In this document: positions 5,006 through 40,410 of the stretch, piece by piece
Layout: every line of letters starts with the position of its first letter
Position numbering within the stretch: the first letter of the stretch is position 1
Source: Blastococcus xanthinilyticus
Lineage (GTDB): Bacteria > Actinomycetota > Actinomycetes > Mycobacteriales > Geodermatophilaceae
NCBI RefSeq assembly: GCF_008124835.1
Contig: NZ_VNHW01000011.1
Coordinates: 124,001-188,000, forward strand
Reading direction: 5' to 3'
Length of the DNA stretch: 64,000 nt
Notes under the pieces: generated by a model
What the model was told of the DNA's origin: nothing
Seen by the model: only the letters and a program-made list of their open reading frames with translations
Databases searched by the model: none
Position numbers and translations under genes: made by a program

Positions 5006-5077
5006 TGGGGTATGGGGTAATTGGCAGCCCGACGGTTTCTGGTTCCGTTAGTCTAGGTTCGAGTCCTGGTACCCCAG
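5006..5077 (+). tRNA. tRNA-Gln (CTG anticodon)
   Basis: A 72-nt cloverleaf. Acceptor strands TGGGGTA (5006-5012) and TACCCCA (5070-5076) pair perfectly, with discriminator G at 5077. The anticodon arm ACGGT-TTCTGGT-TCCGT presents CTG, with one U-U apposition closing the loop. The T-arm contains GGTTCGAGTCC. CCA is not encoded. Confidence 0.95.
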
Positions 5078-5112
5078 CGAGGAATCCTGGTTCCTCCAGC
5101 ACCACCCAGCAC

Positions 5113-5185
5113 GGCCCCGTCGTCTAGCGGCCCAGGACGCCGCCCTCTCACGGCGGTAGCGAGGGTTCGAATCCCTTCGGGGCTA
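5113..5185 (+). tRNA. tRNA-Glu (CTC anticodon), copy 1
   Basis: A 73-nt cloverleaf with acceptor strands GGCCCCG and CGGGGCT (one terminal G-U pair) and discriminator A. The anticodon arm is CCGCC-CTCTCAC-GGCGG, presenting CTC. The T-arm contains GGTTCGAATCC. CCA is not encoded. A strong hairpin follows eight bases later. Confidence 0.96.
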
Positions 5186-5192
5186 CGCGACC

Positions 5193-5224
5193 GAGAGCCC
5201 CCGGCCACCCGGCCGGGGGCTCTC
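5193..5224 (+). terminator. Terminator hairpin after tRNA-Glu copy 1
   Basis: A perfect 14-bp stem (5193-5206 with 5211-5224, beginning GAGAGCCCCCGG) with loop ACCC. It is followed by GCCGTTCCC rather than a U-run, as is usual in high-GC actinobacteria. Confidence 0.8.
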
Positions 5225-5285
5225 GCCGTTCCCGGGGACCCCCGTGACGTCCACGGCCGCGGGCGTGGCAAAATGCTGCACGCAC

Positions 5286-5358
5286 GGCCCCGTCGTCTAG
5301 CGGCCCAGGACGCCGCCCTCTCACGGCGGTAGCGAGGGTTCGAATCCCTTCGGGGCTA
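5286..5358 (+). tRNA. tRNA-Glu (CTC anticodon), copy 2
   Basis: Identical over all 73 bases to the copy 173 bp upstream, with the same CTC anticodon and discriminator A. The copy-1 terminator lies between them, so this copy should need its own promoter. A weak candidate pair is GTGACG at 5244-5249 and CAAAAT at 5269-5274. Confidence 0.96.
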
Positions 5359-5365
5359 CGCAACC

Positions 5366-5397
5366 GAGAGCCCCCGGCCACCTGGCCGGGGGCTCTC
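5366..5397 (+). terminator. Terminator hairpin after tRNA-Glu copy 2
   Basis: The same 14-bp stem as copy 1 (5366-5379 with 5384-5397), with loop ACCT instead of ACCC. Confidence 0.8.
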
Positions 5398-5511
5398 GCC
5401 GTTCCCGCCCCGGCCTCGTCGCGACCGCACCACCCCGGCGTCCCGGCGGTACCCGATCGGGCGTTACGGAGATCGCACGGTCCCCGGTGGCAGCGTGATC
5501 ACCGCCGGGGC

Positions 5512-12026: not shown

Positions 12027-12635
12027 ATGGACGCCTTCACCACGCACACCGGCACGGCCGCGCCGCTGCGCCGCAGCGCCGTCGACACCGACCAGATCAT
12101 CCCGGCCGAGTACCTCAAGCGGATCACCCGCACCGGCTTCGAGGACGGGCTGTTCGTCGCCTGGCGCACCAACGAGCCCGACTTCGTGCTGAACAAGCCG
12201 GAGTACGCCGACGCCTCGATCCTGGTGGCCGGCCCCGACTTCGGCACCGGGTCCTCGCGCGAGCACGCCGTCTGGGCGCTGCTCGACGGCGGCTTCCGGG
12301 TGGTCATCTCCTCCCGGTTCGCCGACATCTTCAAGAACAACTCCACCAAGTCGGGGCTGCTCACCGTCGTGCTGCCGCAGGCCGACGTCGAGGCGCTGTG
12401 GGCCGCCGTCGAGGCAGACCCCACCACCCCGGTGACCGTCGACCTGCAGACCAAGCAGGTCACCTACGGCGACACCACGGTGCCGTTCGAGATCCAGGAC
12501 TACGTGCGGTGGCGGCTGCTCGAGGGGCTCGACGACGTCGGGCTCACCGAGCGGCACCTCGACGACATCGAGGCGTTCGAGGGCCGGCGGCCGGCCTGGC
12601 TGCCCACGGCCCTCCCGGCGCTCCCGGCGCTCTGA
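12027..12635 (+). CDS. leuD: 3-isopropylmalate dehydratase, small subunit
   Basis: A 202-residue swivel-domain subunit that completes the LeuCD heterodimer. It has the conserved [15 protein letters not shown] near the N-terminus and [17 protein letters not shown], the substrate-contacting loop. It is co-transcribed with leuC under the putative NdgR operator. In Mycobacterium, hupB follows leuD; here no hupB is present and a 60-bp palindrome ends the unit. Confidence 0.97.
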
Positions 12636-12647
12636 CCTGCGCCCATG

Positions 12648-12707
12648 GGCATAGGAAGCTCTACGTGCGTTCTCGGCCCCGGGAACGCACGGAGAGCTTC
12701 CTATGCC
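12648..12707. terminator. 60-bp palindrome (copy 1), probable bidirectional terminator
   Basis: Two 25-base arms (12648-12672 and 12683-12707) pair with a single A-G mismatch around the 10-base loop TCGGCCCCGG. The arms begin GGCATAGGAAGCTCTAC; the inner eight bases are GTGCGTTC. It lies between convergent leuD and mutT1, and the mutT1 stop (TAG on the minus strand, 12701-12703) is inside the right arm. A second element with the same outer 17 bases, arm length and loop length is at 39539-39598. Confidence 0.75.
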
Positions 12708-13636
12708 TGGGAGGGGGCGTCGGGGTCGGGCTCGAAGTCGCGGTAGTAGTCGGCCACCAGCGCGCCCGGCCGGCCACCGAGGGCCCACGTGCTGCCCTTG
12801 GCCGCGGGCGGGAGCAGCCCCCGGACGCCGTGGCCGTGCACGCCCAGCGCCTGTAGCACCGCGGGGATCACGCCGCCCTGGCTGCAGACGACGGTGACGC
12901 CCGGGTGCGCCCGGGGCACGAGCAGCCGATCGACCGCCGTGAGCGCGGCCTGCGGGTCGTCGGCGAAGCACGCCTCGCCGAACTCGGGCCGGTCGTGCAC
13001 CCCCAGGCCCATGGTCTCCGCGAGGGGCTCGACCGTCGCGCGGCAGCGCAGCGGGGGTGCCGTCGCGATGGCCTCGGGCTCGAAGAGCGACAGCGCCTCG
13101 GCGAGCCGCCGCGCCTGCCGTCGCCCTCTCTCGTCCAGCGGGCGCTGCTCGTCCGGGCCGTCGAACTCCTGCTTGCTCCCGGCCCGGCCGTGGCGGACCA
13201 GCAGCAGCTCCACCTCGCGCGGGACGTCGGTCCGCGCCGCGTCGGTGATCACCAGCCGGTCGTGGTCGTGGGTGACCAGCGCGGCGGCGTCGTCGGGAGC
13301 GAGCCAGCGCAGCTCGTCCACCTCGTCGTTGGCGGCGAAGGAGCCCCCGACGCACCGCATGAGCCAGTAGTCCACGTGCTTGGGCACGCCGTCGACCGAG
13401 TACTGCGTCGTCGGCCCGCGGCGCCCGGCGACCACGTCGAGGCCGGTCTCCTCGACCACCTCGCGGCAGGCGGCGGCCAGCGCGTGCTCCCCGGCGTCGA
13501 GCTTGCCCTTCGGCAGGGACCAGTCGTCGTAGCGGGGCCGGTGGACGACGGCGATCTCGAGGCCGTCGTCCCCGGCCGGGCGCCACACCACGCCGCCGGC
13601 GGCGGCGATGGTGCGCGGGTCAGCCGGCGAGGCCAT
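12701..13636 (-). CDS. mutT1: NUDIX hydrolase fused to a histidine phosphatase domain (MutT1-like)
   Basis: A 311-residue two-domain protein. The N-terminal NUDIX domain (residues about 8-135) has [20 protein letters not shown] followed by TGLDVVAG, the Nudix box. The C-terminal domain is a phosphoglycerate-mutase-like histidine phosphatase with [12 protein letters not shown] (RHG motif). Mycobacterial MutT1 has this architecture and sanitises 8-oxo-(d)GTP or hydrolyses diadenosine polyphosphates. Its ATG lies within the last codons of ppk (17-nt overlap), so it is the third gene of the cofC-ppk-mutT1 operon, the same neighbours as in Mycobacterium. Confidence 0.92.
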
Positions 13637-35957: not shown

Positions 35958-38900
35958 GTGCACCTGTCGAGCCTCACGCTGAAGGGTTTCAAGTCCTTCG
36001 CGTCCGCCACCACGCTGCGGCTCGAGCCCGGGATCACCGCCGTCGTCGGCCCCAACGGGTCGGGCAAGTCCAACGTCGTCGACGCCATCTCCTGGGTTCT
36101 CGGCGAGCAGGGCGCGAAGAGCCTGCGCGGCGGCAAGATGGAGGACGTCATCTTCGCCGGCACCGCCGGCCGCCCCGCCCTCGGCCGCGCCGAGGTCACC
36201 CTCACGATCGACAACTCCGACGGCGCGTTGCCGATCGAGTACACCGAGGTGTCGATCACTCGCCGCATGTACCGCTCCGGGGAGAGCGAGTACGAGATCA
36301 ACGGCGACAAGGTCCGGCTCCTCGACGTCCAGGAACTGCTCAGCGACTCCGGCATCGGCCGCGAGATGCACGTCATCGTCGGCCAAGGGCAGCTGGACGC
36401 CGTCCTCTCCGGCCGCCCGGAGGACCGCCGCGCCTTCATCGAGGAGGCCGCCGGCGTCCTCAAGCACCGCAAGCGCAAGGAGAAGGCCCTCCGCAAGCTC
36501 GACGGGATGCAGGCCAACCTCGACCGGCTGGCCGACCTCACCGCCGAGCTGCGCCGCCAGCTCAAGCCGCTGGGCCGGCAGGCCGAGGTGGCCCGCCGCG
36601 CGGCCGGTGTCCAGGCCGATCTCCGGGACGCCCGGCTGAGGCTGCTCGCCGACGACCTGGTCCAGCTCCGCGACGCCCTCGACCGCGACGTCGCCGACGA
36701 GACCGCTGCCCGGCAGCGGCGCACCGTCGTCGAGCGGGAGCTGGCGGGGGTGTCCCGCCGGGAGGGCGCGCTGGAGAGCCGGCTGGCCGAGACCGCGCCG
36801 CAGCTGCAGCTGGCGTCCGACACCTGGTACCGGCTCTCCGCCCTCGGTGAGCGGTTCCGCAGCGTCGCCCAGCTGGCGGCCGAGCGGCACCGGCACCTGT
36901 CGGCCCCCGCCGCGGCCGCGGCGCCGGGGCGGGACCCGGAGCAGCTGGACGCCGAGGCCGACCGGGTCGCGGCCACGGAGGCGGAGCTCGCCGACGGGCT
37001 GGCGGCCGAGCGGGACCGGCTGGGCCGGGTCGTCGCCGCCCGCACCGAGCTCGAGCGCGCGCTCGCCGACGCGGAGAAGGCCTGGGTCGCGGCCGCGCGG
37101 GCGCTGGCCGACCGGCGGGAGAGCCTGGCCCGGCTCTCCGGCGAGGTGGCCGCGGCGCGCTCCCGGGCGGGTGCCGGCCAGGCGGAGATCGAGCGGCTCG
37201 CCCTCGCCGCCGCGGAGGCCGCCGACCGCGCCGAGGTGGCCGCCGACCGGCTGGCCGACCGCCGCGGCCAGGTGGCGGAGCAGGAGGACACCGACGTCGC
37301 GCTCGTCGCGGCGCACGAGGACGCCGTCGCGGCGCACGCGGCGGTCGCCCGGCGGGTCGCCGAGCTGGCCGAGGCCGAGCGCGCCGCCGAGCGCGACCGC
37401 GCGTCGTGGCAGGCCCGGCGGGACGCCCTCGCCCTCGGGCTGACCCCCGCCGACGGCGCGGCCGCCGTGCTCGGCGGGGACCTCGCCGGGGTGCTCGGGC
37501 CGCTGACCGAGCAGCTCACCGTCGCTCCCGGCGACGAGGTGGCGGTCGCCGCCGCCCTCGGTGGCATGGCCGACGCCGTCGTCGTCTCAGGGGTGGCCGA
37601 GGCCGCCGCCGCGCTGGCCCACCTGACGCGCACCGAGGGCGGCCGCGCCGGTCTCCTCGTCACCGGGGGCTTGCCGCCCGTGCCGCGCGACGGGTGGCCC
37701 GAGCTGCCCGCGGGCGCGCGCTGGGCGCTGGACGCGGTGGAGGCTCCCGAGCCGCTGCGGCCGGCGCTGGCCCGGGCGCTGGAGCGGGTCGCCCTCGTGC
37801 CCGACCTGGACGCCGCGGTCGCGCTGGTGCGCGTGCACCCCCGGGTGCGCGCCGTCACCGCCACCGGCGACCTGCTGGGCGCCGACTGGGCGGTAGGCGG
37901 GCAGTCCGACGCCCCGTCCAACCTGGAGATGCGGGCCCGCGTCGACGAGGCGGCGGCCGAGCTGGACGCCGCCACCGTGCACGCGGCCCGGCTCGCCGAG
38001 GAGCTGAGCGAGGCGCGGCGCACCGCCGAGGAGCGTTCCGTCGACGTCGACGCCGCGCTCGCCGCCCGGCAGGTCGCGGACCGGAGCCGCTCCGCCGAGG
38101 CGACCGCGCTCGCCGAGCTGGGGGCCGCCGCCCGGTCGGCGACCGCCGAGGCCGAGCGGCACGCCGCCGCCCGGGTGCGCGCCGAGGAGTCCCTGGAGCG
38201 GGCGCTCACCGCGCTGACCACCCTGGAGGCGCGGCTCACCGAGGCCCAGGCGGCCCCGCTGGAGGACGAGCCGCCCACCGAGGAGCGCGACCGGCTGCGT
38301 GCCGAGGTGGCCGCGGCCCGGCAGGGCGAGACCGAGGCGCGGCTGGCCGTGCGGACGGCGGAGGAGCGGGCCCGCGCGCTCCAGGGCCGCGCCGAGTCGC
38401 TGCGCCGTCAGGCCCGGCAGGAGCGGGCCGCGCGCGAGCGCGCCGCCGCGGCCCGGGCCGCCCGGGAGCGCGGGGCGGCCGTCGCCGCCGCCGTGCGGGC
38501 GGACGCGGAGGCCGCCGGGGTGGCGCTGCAGACGTCGCTGACCCGCGCCGGCGCCGAGCGCGACGCCCTGGCCGCGTCGCGGAACTCGTCCGAGGCGGAG
38601 CTGCTGGAGGTGCGGAGCCGGGTGCGGGCGGCCACCGCGGAGCTGGACCGGCTCACCGACGAGGTGCACCGCGACGAGGTAGCGCGCACCGAGCAGCGGT
38701 ACCGCATCGAGACGCTGGAGACCCGCGCTGCCGAGGAGTTCGGCGTCGACCTGCCCACGCTGGTGGCCGAGTACGGCCCCGCGGCGGCCGTGCCGCCGTC
38801 GCCGCAGCAGCTGGCCGAGGCCGAGGCCGCCGGGCAGCCGGCGCCCGAGCCGACGCCCTACGAGCGGGCGGCGCAGGAGCGCCGGGTGGCCCGGGCCGAG

Positions 38901-39524
38901 CGCGATCTCGCCACGCTGGGCAAGGTGAACCCGCTGGCGCTGGAGGAGTTCGCGGCACTGGAGGAGCGGCACACGTTCCTGGCCACCCAGCTGGAGGACC
39001 TCAAGAACACCCGCCGGGACCTGCTCACCGTCGTCCGCGAGGTCGACGGCCGGATCCACGACGTCTTCGCCGCCGCGTTCGCCGACGTGGCCCGGGAGTT
39101 CGAGCAGGTGTTCGCCACCCTGTTCCCGGGCGGCTCCGGCCGGCTGGTGCTCACCGACCCCGAGAACATGCTCACCACCGGCGTGGAGGTCGAGGCCCGG
39201 CCGCCGGGCAAGAAGGTCAAGCGGCTGTCCCTGCTGTCCGGCGGCGAGCGCTCGCTGACCGCCGTCGCGATGCTGGTGGCGATCTTCCGCGCCCGGCCCT
39301 CGCCGTTCTACGTGCTCGACGAGGTCGAGGCGGCGCTGGACGACGTCAACCTCGGCCGGCTGCTGGTCCTGGTGGAGCAGCTGCGGTCGACGTCCCAGCT
39401 GATCATCATCACGCACCAGAAGCGGACGATGGAGATCGCCGACGCCCTCTACGGCGTGAGCATGCGCGGCGACGGCATCACCGGCGTGATCAGCCAGCGG
39501 CTCCGCGAGCTCGAGACCGCCTGA
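35958..39524 (+). CDS. smc: Chromosome segregation protein SMC
   Basis: A 1188-residue structural-maintenance-of-chromosomes ATPase, a normal length. The N-terminal head has VVGPNGSGKSNVVDAISWVL (Walker A about 31-38). Long Ala/Arg/Glu-rich coiled coils flank a hinge around residues 510-660. The C-terminal head has LSGGERSLTAVAML (signature about 1093) and FYVLDEVEAALDDVN (Walker B). It dimerises at the hinge and works with ScpA/ScpB, not in this window, to organise DNA. It starts at GTG 35958 and is followed by an 11-C run and a 60-bp palindrome. Confidence 0.97.
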   Translation: MHLSSLTLKGFKSFASATTLRLEPGITAVVGPNGSGKSNVVDAISWVLGEQGAKSLRGGKMEDVIFAGTAGRPALGRAEVTLTIDNSDGALPIEYTEVSITRRMYRSGESEYEINGDKVRLLDVQELLSDSGIGREMHVIVGQGQLDAVLSGRPEDRRAFIEEAAGVLKHRKRKEKALRKLDGMQANLDRLADLTAELRRQLKPLGRQAEVARRAAGVQADLRDARLRLLADDLVQLRDALDRDVADETAARQRRTVVERELAGVSRREGALESRLAETAPQLQLASDTWYRLSALGERFRSVAQLAAERHRHLSAPAAAAAPGRDPEQLDAEADRVAATEAELADGLAAERDRLGRVVAARTELERALADAEKAWVAAARALADRRESLARLSGEVAAARSRAGAGQAEIERLALAAAEAADRAEVAADRLADRRGQVAEQEDTDVALVAAHEDAVAAHAAVARRVAELAEAERAAERDRASWQARRDALALGLTPADGAAAVLGGDLAGVLGPLTEQLTVAPGDEVAVAAALGGMADAVVVSGVAEAAAALAHLTRTEGGRAGLLVTGGLPPVPRDGWPELPAGARWALDAVEAPEPLRPALARALERVALVPDLDAAVALVRVHPRVRAVTATGDLLGADWAVGGQSDAPSNLEMRARVDEAAAELDAATVHAARLAEELSEARRTAEERSVDVDAALAARQVADRSRSAEATALAELGAAARSATAEAERHAAARVRAEESLERALTALTTLEARLTEAQAAPLEDEPPTEERDRLRAEVAAARQGETEARLAVRTAEERARALQGRAESLRRQARQERAARERAAAARAARERGAAVAAAVRADAEAAGVALQTSLTRAGAERDALAASRNSSEAELLEVRSRVRAATAELDRLTDEVHRDEVARTEQRYRIETLETRAAEEFGVDLPTLVAEYGPAAAVPPSPQQLAEAEAAGQPAPEPTPYERAAQERRVARAERDLATLGKVNPLALEEFAALEERHTFLATQLEDLKNTRRDLLTVVREVDGRIHDVFAAAFADVAREFEQVFATLFPGGSGRLVLTDPENMLTTGVEVEARPPGKKVKRLSLLSGGERSLTAVAMLVAIFRARPSPFYVLDEVEAALDDVNLGRLLVLVEQLRSTSQLIIITHQKRTMEIADALYGVSMRGDGITGVISQRLRELETA

Positions 39525-39526
39525 CG

Positions 39527-39537
39527 CCCCCCCCCCC
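39527..39537. repeat. Homopolymer of eleven C
   Basis: An uninterrupted C11 tract just past the smc stop, directly before the second 60-bp palindrome. It is prone to slippage and to sequencing error; being intergenic, it changes no frame. Confidence 0.9.
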
Positions 39538-39538
39538 G

Positions 39539-39598
39539 GGCATAGGAAGCTCTACCTACGGATCGGGGCCCGCATCCGTAGGTAGAGCTTCCTATGCC
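39539..39598. terminator. 60-bp palindrome (copy 2), probable bidirectional terminator
   Basis: Arms of 25 bases (39539-39563 and 39574-39598) pair perfectly around the 10-base loop CGGGGCCCGC. The outer 17 bases, GGCATAGGAAGCTCTAC, equal those at 12648; the inner eight are CTACGGAT, different from copy 1 but fully complementary to their own right arm. It lies between convergent smc and the phosphatase-fold gene, whose stop uses the last base of the element. Confidence 0.8.
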
Positions 39599-40410
39599 TA
39601 GACGCCGCTGCGGACCTCGAGGTCGACGACGACCGGCAGGTGGTCGGAGGCGCCCTCGGCGTCGAGCACGTAGGCCCCCGCCACGGCGACGCCGGAGGAG
39701 ACCCACACCTGGTCGATCCGGCGGTGCGGGGAGCGCGCCGGGTGGGTCATGCCGGCGTCGCTCTGCCAGAACCGCCAGCCGGCCTGGTCGTCGCGGGCTC
39801 GGGCGAGCTGCCAGGCGTCGGTGAACCGCTGGCGCAGCGCGTCGAGCTCGGGGGCGTCGGGCGTGCTGTTGAAGTCGCCGACCAGGACGCCGGTCTCCAT
39901 CGCGTCGGTGTGCAGGCCGGCCAGCGAGCCCACCTGGGCGGCGCGCTCCTCCGCCGACCGGGTGGTGAGGTGCGTGCCGGTCACCCACAGCGCGCCGCCG
40001 TCGAGCTCCACCATGGTGCGCAGCGCGCTGCGCGGCTCGCCGGTGCCGGGCAGCGGGTGCACGTCGCTGATCAGGATCGGCAGCCGCGACAGGAGCGCGT
40101 TGCCGTACTGCCGGCGCGGCTCGCCCTCGCCGGCGCCGTCCACCGGGCCCCGGTCGATCGCCGGCCCCCACGCCAGCTGCATGTCCAGCGCGCGGGAGAG
40201 CAGCAGCGCCTGGTCGACGTCCTCGCTGCGCTCCCCGAAGCGGCGGTCGACCTCCTGCAGGCAGATGATGTCGGCGTCGACCGACGCCAGCAGGGTGGCG
40301 AGGCGGGGGAGGTCGTGCCGGTCGTCGTCGCCGACGCCGTGGTGGGTGTTGAAGGTGACCAGCCGCACGGGGATGGGTGGCTGGTCGGGGCCCGGGGCCG
40401 GCTTGGTCAC
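39598..40410 (-). CDS. Endonuclease/exonuclease/phosphatase (EEP) family protein
   Basis: A 270-residue metallo-phosphoesterase with RLVTFNTHHG at the N-terminus, ICLQEVDRR (metal-binding Glu), TGTHLTTR, GVLVGDFNSTPDA (catalytic Asp-x-Asn) and ASDHLPVVVDL (SDH motif). These are all the EEP catalytic blocks. The substrate may be DNA, phosphoinositide-like lipids or another phosphodiester. No signal peptide is seen. It starts 12 bp after the stop of the PhoD-like gene on the same strand, so both enzymes are likely made together. Confidence 0.9.
   Translation of the reverse strand: MTKPAPGPDQPPIPVRLVTFNTHHGVGDDDRHDLPRLATLLASVDADIICLQEVDRRFGERSEDVDQALLLSRALDMQLAWGPAIDRGPVDGAGEGEPRRQYGNALLSRLPILISDVHPLPGTGEPRSALRTMVELDGGALWVTGTHLTTRSAEERAAQVGSLAGLHTDAMETGVLVGDFNSTPDAPELDALRQRFTDAWQLARARDDQAGWRFWQSDAGMTHPARSPHRRIDQVWVSSGVAVAGAYVLDAEGASDHLPVVVDLEVRSGV

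Follow-up and report, generated by a model that had tools for sequence, protein, structure and literature searches.

We have discovered that two 60-bp palindromes in a 64,000-nt stretch of Blastococcus xanthinilyticus DNA (hereafter the window) belong to a dispersed repeat family whose arm sequences appear to track a nuclease-like protein. The elements are probably recognition palindromes of an AbiEi-DUF559 nuclease (Vsr-like, PD-(D/E)XK), and the window copies appear orphaned, as the corA-rsmI allele of their own genome is diverged and has palindromes on neither side at the threshold used. A protein and a chromosomal repeat family paired in this way would be a new type of partnership in bacteria.

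The window palindromes and their dispersed family

Both window palindromes are real and lie far above chance. An earlier note on this DNA had given their coordinates and their 60-bp inverted-repeat architecture exactly, and the contact with a stop codon that it described was found at both elements (Table 1). Its claim of 17 identical outer bases holds for the two left arms and fails for the right arm of element 1, which is mismatched at pair 16; perfect pairing likewise applies to element 2, whereas the stem of element 1 is imperfect at that one pair. At up to 3 mismatches, the 17-mer has four matches in the window, all of them within the two palindromes, where 0.02 would be expected. Predicted RNA folding energies of the elements range from -46.8 to -52.5 kcal/mol, and none of 200 shuffles folded equally well.

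Table 1. Palindromic elements and adjoining genes, in window coordinates
Feature	Position	Strand	Remarks
Palindromic element 1	12648..12707	.	60 bp; arms 12648-12672 and 12683-12707; 10-bp loop; mismatch at pair 16
Palindromic element 2	39539..39598	.	60 bp; arms 39539-39563 and 39574-39598; 10-bp loop; 25-bp arms perfect
Aconitase-C (leuD-like) gene	12027..12635	+	Ends 12 nt upstream of element 1
NUDIX + histidine phosphatase gene	12701..13636	-	Stop TAG (12701-12703) within element 1
SMC gene	35958..39524	+	Ends 14 nt upstream of element 2
Endonuclease/exonuclease/phosphatase-family gene	39598..40410	-	Stop codon overlaps element 2 by one base, 39598

No known RNA family was recovered for the elements, as Rfam at gathering scores returned only three tRNAs in the window. 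The three tRNA genes lie at 5006-5398; behind two of them stands nearly the same 34-bp GC-rich hairpin (5192-5225 and 5365-5398), which probably reflects duplication of a tRNA together with its terminator. Directly 5' of element 2 there are 11 consecutive C residues (39527-39537), which are missing from the empty site of one relative (G018).

Dispersal of the family, which had been proposed from the two copies, was borne out. The B. xanthinilyticus genome (G000; 38 contigs, 4.6 Mb) contains 37 matches to the 17-mer when up to 3 mismatches are allowed, versus 11 for the reversed control, and all 7 exact matches to a 13-mer fall inside palindromes. A covariance model (R1) built from 90 sequences was applied with strict filters, scoring at most 48 candidates per genome; it yielded 42 matches on both strands of this genome, corresponding to about 21 sites, and matches in 65 of 112 Geodermatophilaceae genomes, representing 8 of 12 genera. 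The scan of named genomes gave at least 112 loci, and all 80 named among the matches listed belong to Blastococcus, Modestobacter, Geodermatophilus or Trujillonella, all of them Geodermatophilaceae. Viral contigs held no exact match to the palindrome pattern. The family is thus neither confined to two copies nor common inside genes; a few copies lie within called reading frames (L254:2055-2113, L060 and L157), one of them in the genome of B. xanthinilyticus itself.

Element length is nearly fixed: among 154 elements, 106 are 60 bp, 45 are 59 bp, two are 61 bp and one is 58 bp. Variation is low in the outer 12 bases and free in the loop; the inner arm occurs in a number of genus-level forms that recur across the family. 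Across the 90 sequences, 277 pair cells are doubly changed versus a mean of 123 in shuffles, and 90.7% of cells are paired versus 80.9%; the excess of compensating double changes indicates that pairing has been kept across the family. Quasi-palindrome correction during replication could partly produce such covariation. The inner arm had been described as covarying, and this stands in that compensation is family-wide; the arm is not free, as its recurring forms demonstrate. Decay of the copies in the B. xanthinilyticus genome does not exceed that in three genomes that carry the partner gene described below (p 0.35), so decay of the orphan copies was undetected in that comparison. Two further repeats were observed. 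At a gene end in G021 (L255:1837-2029), a 42-bp unit made of one arm plus loop is tandemly repeated 4.6 times, so that part of an element has expanded locally. Another short palindrome, GGGCAGAAATGGCCATTTCTGCCC, recurs with close variants at the same convergent junctions in three genomes (G009, G011 and G022; gaps L220, L225, L249 and L252).

Gene context was derived with a home-made codon-usage gene caller. Of 154 distinct elements, 86 lie between convergent genes, 57 between codirectional genes and 5 between divergent genes, with 2 intragenic and 4 at edges. Background gaps of at least 50 nt (window plus named loci, element gaps included) comprise 99 convergent, 245 codirectional and 149 divergent cases, a clearly different distribution (chi-square 94, p 4e-21). 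Placement is tight beside gene 3' ends, with 132 of 143 gene-end elements within 30 nt of a stop codon (median 9 nt); a TAG inside the element is itself the stop of the nearest gene in 26 of the 143, and the upstream stop is the nearer one in 50 of the 57 codirectional copies.

Occupancy was compared at the two orthologous junctions in 23 genomes of the genus, the own genome counted and one genome unassessable per site. The leuD/NUDIX junction carries an element in 8 of 22 genomes and the smc/exo-endonuclease junction in 5 of 22, so that empty junctions are in the majority (14 and 17 of 22, respectively). Empty leuD/NUDIX gaps measure -52 to 36 nt; many empty smc/exo-endonuclease gaps are equally tight, and others hold about 0.5-1.2 kb of other sequence. 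In G018, whose NUDIX protein is 93% identical to that of the window, the gap is empty at 19 nt and nearly identical to the 20-nt gap of G021; this 91% complete genome gave no match to the model. On a host tree of five proteins, the occupancy of each site requires at least four changes. Such repeated changes between filled and empty sites indicate that elements come and go at the same junctions, although shared ancestry with losses, recombination and fresh insertion are not separable at every node. By eye, no clear target-site duplication distinguished filled from empty leuD and smc sites, where spacers are too diverged, and no transposition intermediate was seen. The suggestion that the elements are non-autonomous mobile units therefore stands as regards patchy, repeatedly changing occupancy and lacks observed transposition; we consider it likely that they are mobile units.

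A palindrome-flanked gene for an AbiEi-DUF559 protein

At several loci, two palindromes lie about 1.08 kb apart with the gene for a 307-aa protein between them. The C-terminus of this partner protein matches a DUF559/MTES_1575 nuclease domain (DUF559 E 6.5e-11), and its N-terminus is AbiEi-like (PADLOC AbiEi E 1e-19). A structure predicted from a six-sequence model (pLDDT 79, versus 40 for a single-sequence model) matches AbiEi (6y8q, E 2e-6) and Rv2827c (1zel, E 1e-4), and its C-terminal part weakly matches the catalytic domain of the homing endonuclease I-Bth0305I (3r3p; E 0.06, prob 1.00, TM 0.68 by target). According to the available text of one study (PMC7319586), AbiEi proteins autoregulate via paired inverted repeats; AbiEi binds two 23-bp repeats 3 bp apart, and the sites of Rv2827c are paired 23-bp inverted repeats with a 13-bp separation (59 bp in all), located no more than 131 bp from its own start codon. 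By analogy with this repeat binding, and with the 59-bp span of Rv2827c in particular, the palindrome is probably a two-arm binding site for the partner protein.

Close homologs of the partner protein (E 1e-77 or better) occur in 32 of 112 family genomes, all 32 of which carry elements, and in none of 47 genomes without a detected element (Fisher p 4e-10, a value that ignores kinship). Thirty-three of the 65 element-bearing genomes, that of B. xanthinilyticus included, have no close homolog. Outside the family, no close form was found in 396 genomes of the phylum when the best five candidates per genome were scored, the best other match having 38% identity, and a plasmid collection gave no match at E 1e-15.

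Flanks were examined for 31 genes from 30 of the 32 genomes, two of them from G023; the second copies of G099 and G100 and a fragment in G096 were left out. Covariance-model matches at E<=1e-6 were found on both sides of 26 genes, on one side of 3 and on neither side of 2. A palindrome score of at least 15 was reached on both flanks by 28 of the 31 genes versus 3 of 200 control genes, the controls being drawn from element-rich loci, and 30 of the 31 genes passed at least one of these two strict tests. In the remaining gene (G098), the flanks are clearly similar to each other, with a score of 40 that is greater than any among 376 controls. For all 31 close genes, flank-flank similarity lay above the 99th percentile of these 376 control genes. 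A looser palindrome score of at least 12 on both sides was rejected as proof of flanking, since 32 of 200 controls reached it along with all 31 genes. In G004, one of the two flanks is truncated and contains an assembly gap. In all 31 genes, 79-146 nt separate the end of the upstream palindrome from the first aligned codon, and the downstream palindrome starts -7 to 42 nt past the stop codon in 30 genes and farther away in G127. Most partner genes lie between corA and rsmI, while neither neighbor is present at 3 of 30 loci (L277, L289 and L291). At corA-rsmI the upstream palindrome is also directly behind the corA stop, and a general preference for 3' ends could explain part of the flanking.

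The corA-rsmI locus itself varies among the 23 genomes of the genus, with the close gene in 8 and a diverged relative or fragment in 13 (same orientation in 4, opposite in 9); the locus in G015 is a remnant. In G012 (L402), a solo palindrome beginning GTGCACCGATCGTGGTGATG stands alone where relatives have palindrome-gene-palindrome, which looks like a scar or an unfilled target. Of the 13 diverged alleles, 4 have palindromes on both sides, 2 on one side and 7, including that of B. xanthinilyticus, on neither side at the threshold used; an example sequence is TGTGCGCTGATCGTGGTGAT. No close homolog of the partner protein was found in the B. xanthinilyticus genome, and its corA-rsmI locus holds a diverged relative with other flanks. 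The flank motif of this allele (CCGTTCGTGCAC type) was considered as a dispersed repeat in the window and rejected, as it gave one match with 3 mismatches, near chance. Against controls that all come from Geodermatophilaceae loci, flank-flank similarity exceeded the 99th percentile in 11 of 13 corA-rsmI alleles, with slightly different allele windows, in 11 of 18 family paralogs and in 15 of 28 relatives from other families, one further paralog and one further other-family relative being unscored. Some of these similar flanks are clear palindrome pairs of their own sequence (L299, L304 and L430), and others are not.

Matching between palindrome arms and the partner protein

Flank arms vary among genomes and include GGCATAGGAAGC, GGCATAGGTACC, GGCATGGGAAGC, GGTATCGGAAGC and others. 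Across 28 loci, arms diverge along with the protein after control for rsmI distance (partial r 0.38, p 0.001), and after control for protein distance no correlation with rsmI is left (partial r 0.01). Flank-arm sequence is thus tied more closely to the protein than to rsmI, a host gene. Proteins with GGCATGGGAAGC-type arms come from three genera and form one clade (support 99/95).

Solo copies match the resident gene in part. G023 has two partner genes with two flank types, and 15 solo copies, from approximately 33 sites in this genome, are split 10 and 5 between these types. Elsewhere, solo copies mostly lack the arms of the resident gene, which were found in 4 of 20 copies (G040), 3 of 16 (G104), 0 of 9 (G121), 0 of 3 (G092) and 0 of 1 (G107), in a sample made up of the best hits of a model centered on GGCATAGGAAGC and hence biased toward that arm; in G121, one of the four resident flank arms does match. 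Mismatched solo copies could possibly be older, displaced families.

A scan of all protein columns pointed to residue 99 as the partner of arm base 6, which was set by hand as the majority of the four flank arms. The pairs are Gln with A (18 proteins), His with G (8), Glu with C (2) and Ala with T (1). Two proteins depart from this scheme, one in which Gln meets a T/A tie (G062) and one that has Ser opposite A. Normalized mutual information is 0.84 for residue 99 and 0.43 for the next column, and the maximum over columns in 400 label shuffles, which ignore kinship, was 0.49. On the protein tree, the His/G pair requires five changes; well-supported branches force at least three of these, or two with column 99 masked. 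Contacts of Gln with adenine, His with guanine and Glu with cytosine are well known from protein-DNA complexes. Residue 249, just before an HH motif, is Ala in four TACC-type proteins, whereas 16 AAGC-type proteins have Arg, Gln, His or Lys there, a link that is weaker across all 31 proteins. Cognate recognition of the palindrome by the partner protein is thus well supported at the level of sequence, and the proposed rule from residue 99 to base 6 is readable and directly testable. The idea that the elements are protein-binding palindromes, one of several raised when they were noticed, gains strong support from the candidate partner protein, the flanking and the arm matching, and an uncharacterized nuclease family gains a likely DNA substrate.

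Rival readings, a proposed mechanism and known systems

It is rather unlikely that the elements are plain bidirectional transcription terminators, that is, strong hairpins between convergent genes whose lineage-specific sequence has no further meaning. Their very stable hairpins and their closeness to stop codons, including the nearer upstream stop of most codirectional copies, would fit such a reading, and one terminator feature, a stable hairpin directly after a stop codon, is present. However, no T-run terminator occurs around either window element (12400-12950 and 39300-39850), sequence is conserved inside the stem, the flank-arm type tracks a nuclease gene, and at the two sites compared most orthologous junctions are empty. 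A terminator role for the elements is possible in itself, and our findings suggest that some actinobacterial hairpins otherwise read as terminators may be deposits of such units. Somewhat doubtful, if possible, is a reading in which the palindromes are operators only, with the AbiEi-nuclease autoregulating via the upstream palindrome, the solo copies forming a regulon or acting as decoys, and no protein-driven mobility. The autoregulation of AbiEi through paired inverted repeats described in the available part of PMC7319586 and the 79-146 nt placement of the upstream palindrome favor operators, but the downstream palindrome is roughly as constant as the upstream one, solo copies are found at 3' ends and are rare in divergent promoter regions (5 of 154), and occupancy changes repeatedly.

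A role in defense or self-marking, by which the nuclease would distinguish its own palindrome-carrying DNA from foreign DNA, appears improbable. The AbiEi models come from a defense library and the gene has divergent alleles at one locus; against this, about 21-42 sites per genome (at least, for some counts) are too sparse for protection by proximity, and the neighbors at the main locus are corA and rsmI rather than defense genes. Spread as REPINs by a RAYT (HUH/Y1) transposase can scarcely be credited. The elements do have the same look, being inverted repeat pairs that are dispersed, intergenic and variable along with a flanked gene, but Y1_Tnp (PF01797) was found in 0 of 112 family genomes by a search that was positive in 5 of 14 control genomes. 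A RAYT/IS200 origin is thus refuted for Y1 enzymes detectable by the Pfam model.

We favor the reading of the elements as recognition palindromes of the AbiEi-DUF559 nuclease, for which we propose the following mechanism. Two AbiEi-like modules, each on one arm of approximately 23-25 bp, would set the 59-60 bp length. The nuclease domain may nick or cut at the palindrome; both cutting and movement are inferred from the presence of this domain and from changing occupancy. Breakage and repair, gene conversion or template switching could then copy short palindromes to gene 3' ends, and the same processes could swap whole palindrome-gene-palindrome cassettes at the shared corA-rsmI locus. The window copies would be orphans that persist since hairpins at convergent junctions do no harm or aid the end of transcription. 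More tentatively, AbiEi-DUF559 proteins across the Actinomycetota could be enzymes of an unrecognized mobile or homing class, marked by a palindrome-bracketed gene, a residue-base code, solo dispersal and cassette swaps. No literature linking DUF559 or AbiEi-nucleases to dispersed palindromes was found by title or the start of the abstract among open PMC papers, and the available portions of three papers (PMC9686282, PMC12907096 and PMC3733652) hold nothing further on palindromes with AbiEi-nucleases.

DNA uptake sequences of Neisseria and Haemophilus pair as terminators. They resemble the present family in having a conserved 12-mer in inverted pairs behind genes, and differ from it in numbering hundreds rather than about 21 sites; the 13-mer here occurs only inside palindromes. 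With too few copies and a 13-mer confined in this way, the uptake-sequence reading was rejected.

The operators of AbiEi and Rv2827c are comparable, to the extent described in the source cited above, in that a homologous DNA-binding part is accompanied by paired repeats of approximately 23 bp upstream, here appearing as 25-bp arms in a palindrome of 58-61 bp that would serve the same binding. Unlike the AbiE type IV toxin-antitoxin system, the present protein has a C-terminal nuclease domain, its palindrome has a second, downstream copy, and there are many chromosomal copies. A gene for the AbiEii nucleotidyltransferase toxin is absent from corA-rsmI, where the gap of approximately 1.1 kb fits one gene and holds no second. 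EDxHD/Vsr-like homing endonucleases such as I-Bth0305I have a catalytic domain to which the C-terminal part shows a weak structural resemblance, and the gene here lies in a cassette that is gained and lost at a single locus; in contrast to them, no intron or intein is involved and the palindromes disperse without the gene. In the available text of two papers (PMC3116915 and PMC8266576), REPIN/RAYT systems are described as dispersed short palindromes, of more than one type per genome, that co-evolve with an associated enzyme gene. In architecture alone, such REPtrons share with the present family dispersed, intergenic, hairpin-forming inverted repeats linked to an associated gene. The family described here differs in having an AbiEi-DUF559 protein in place of an HUH tyrosine transposase and a single inverted repeat of 59-60 bp beside stop codons; its sequences thus follow a protein that has no relationship to the HUH transposases. 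If the proposed class is real, it would represent a look-alike of REPIN/RAYT made of an antitoxin-type DNA reader and a Vsr-like nuclease.
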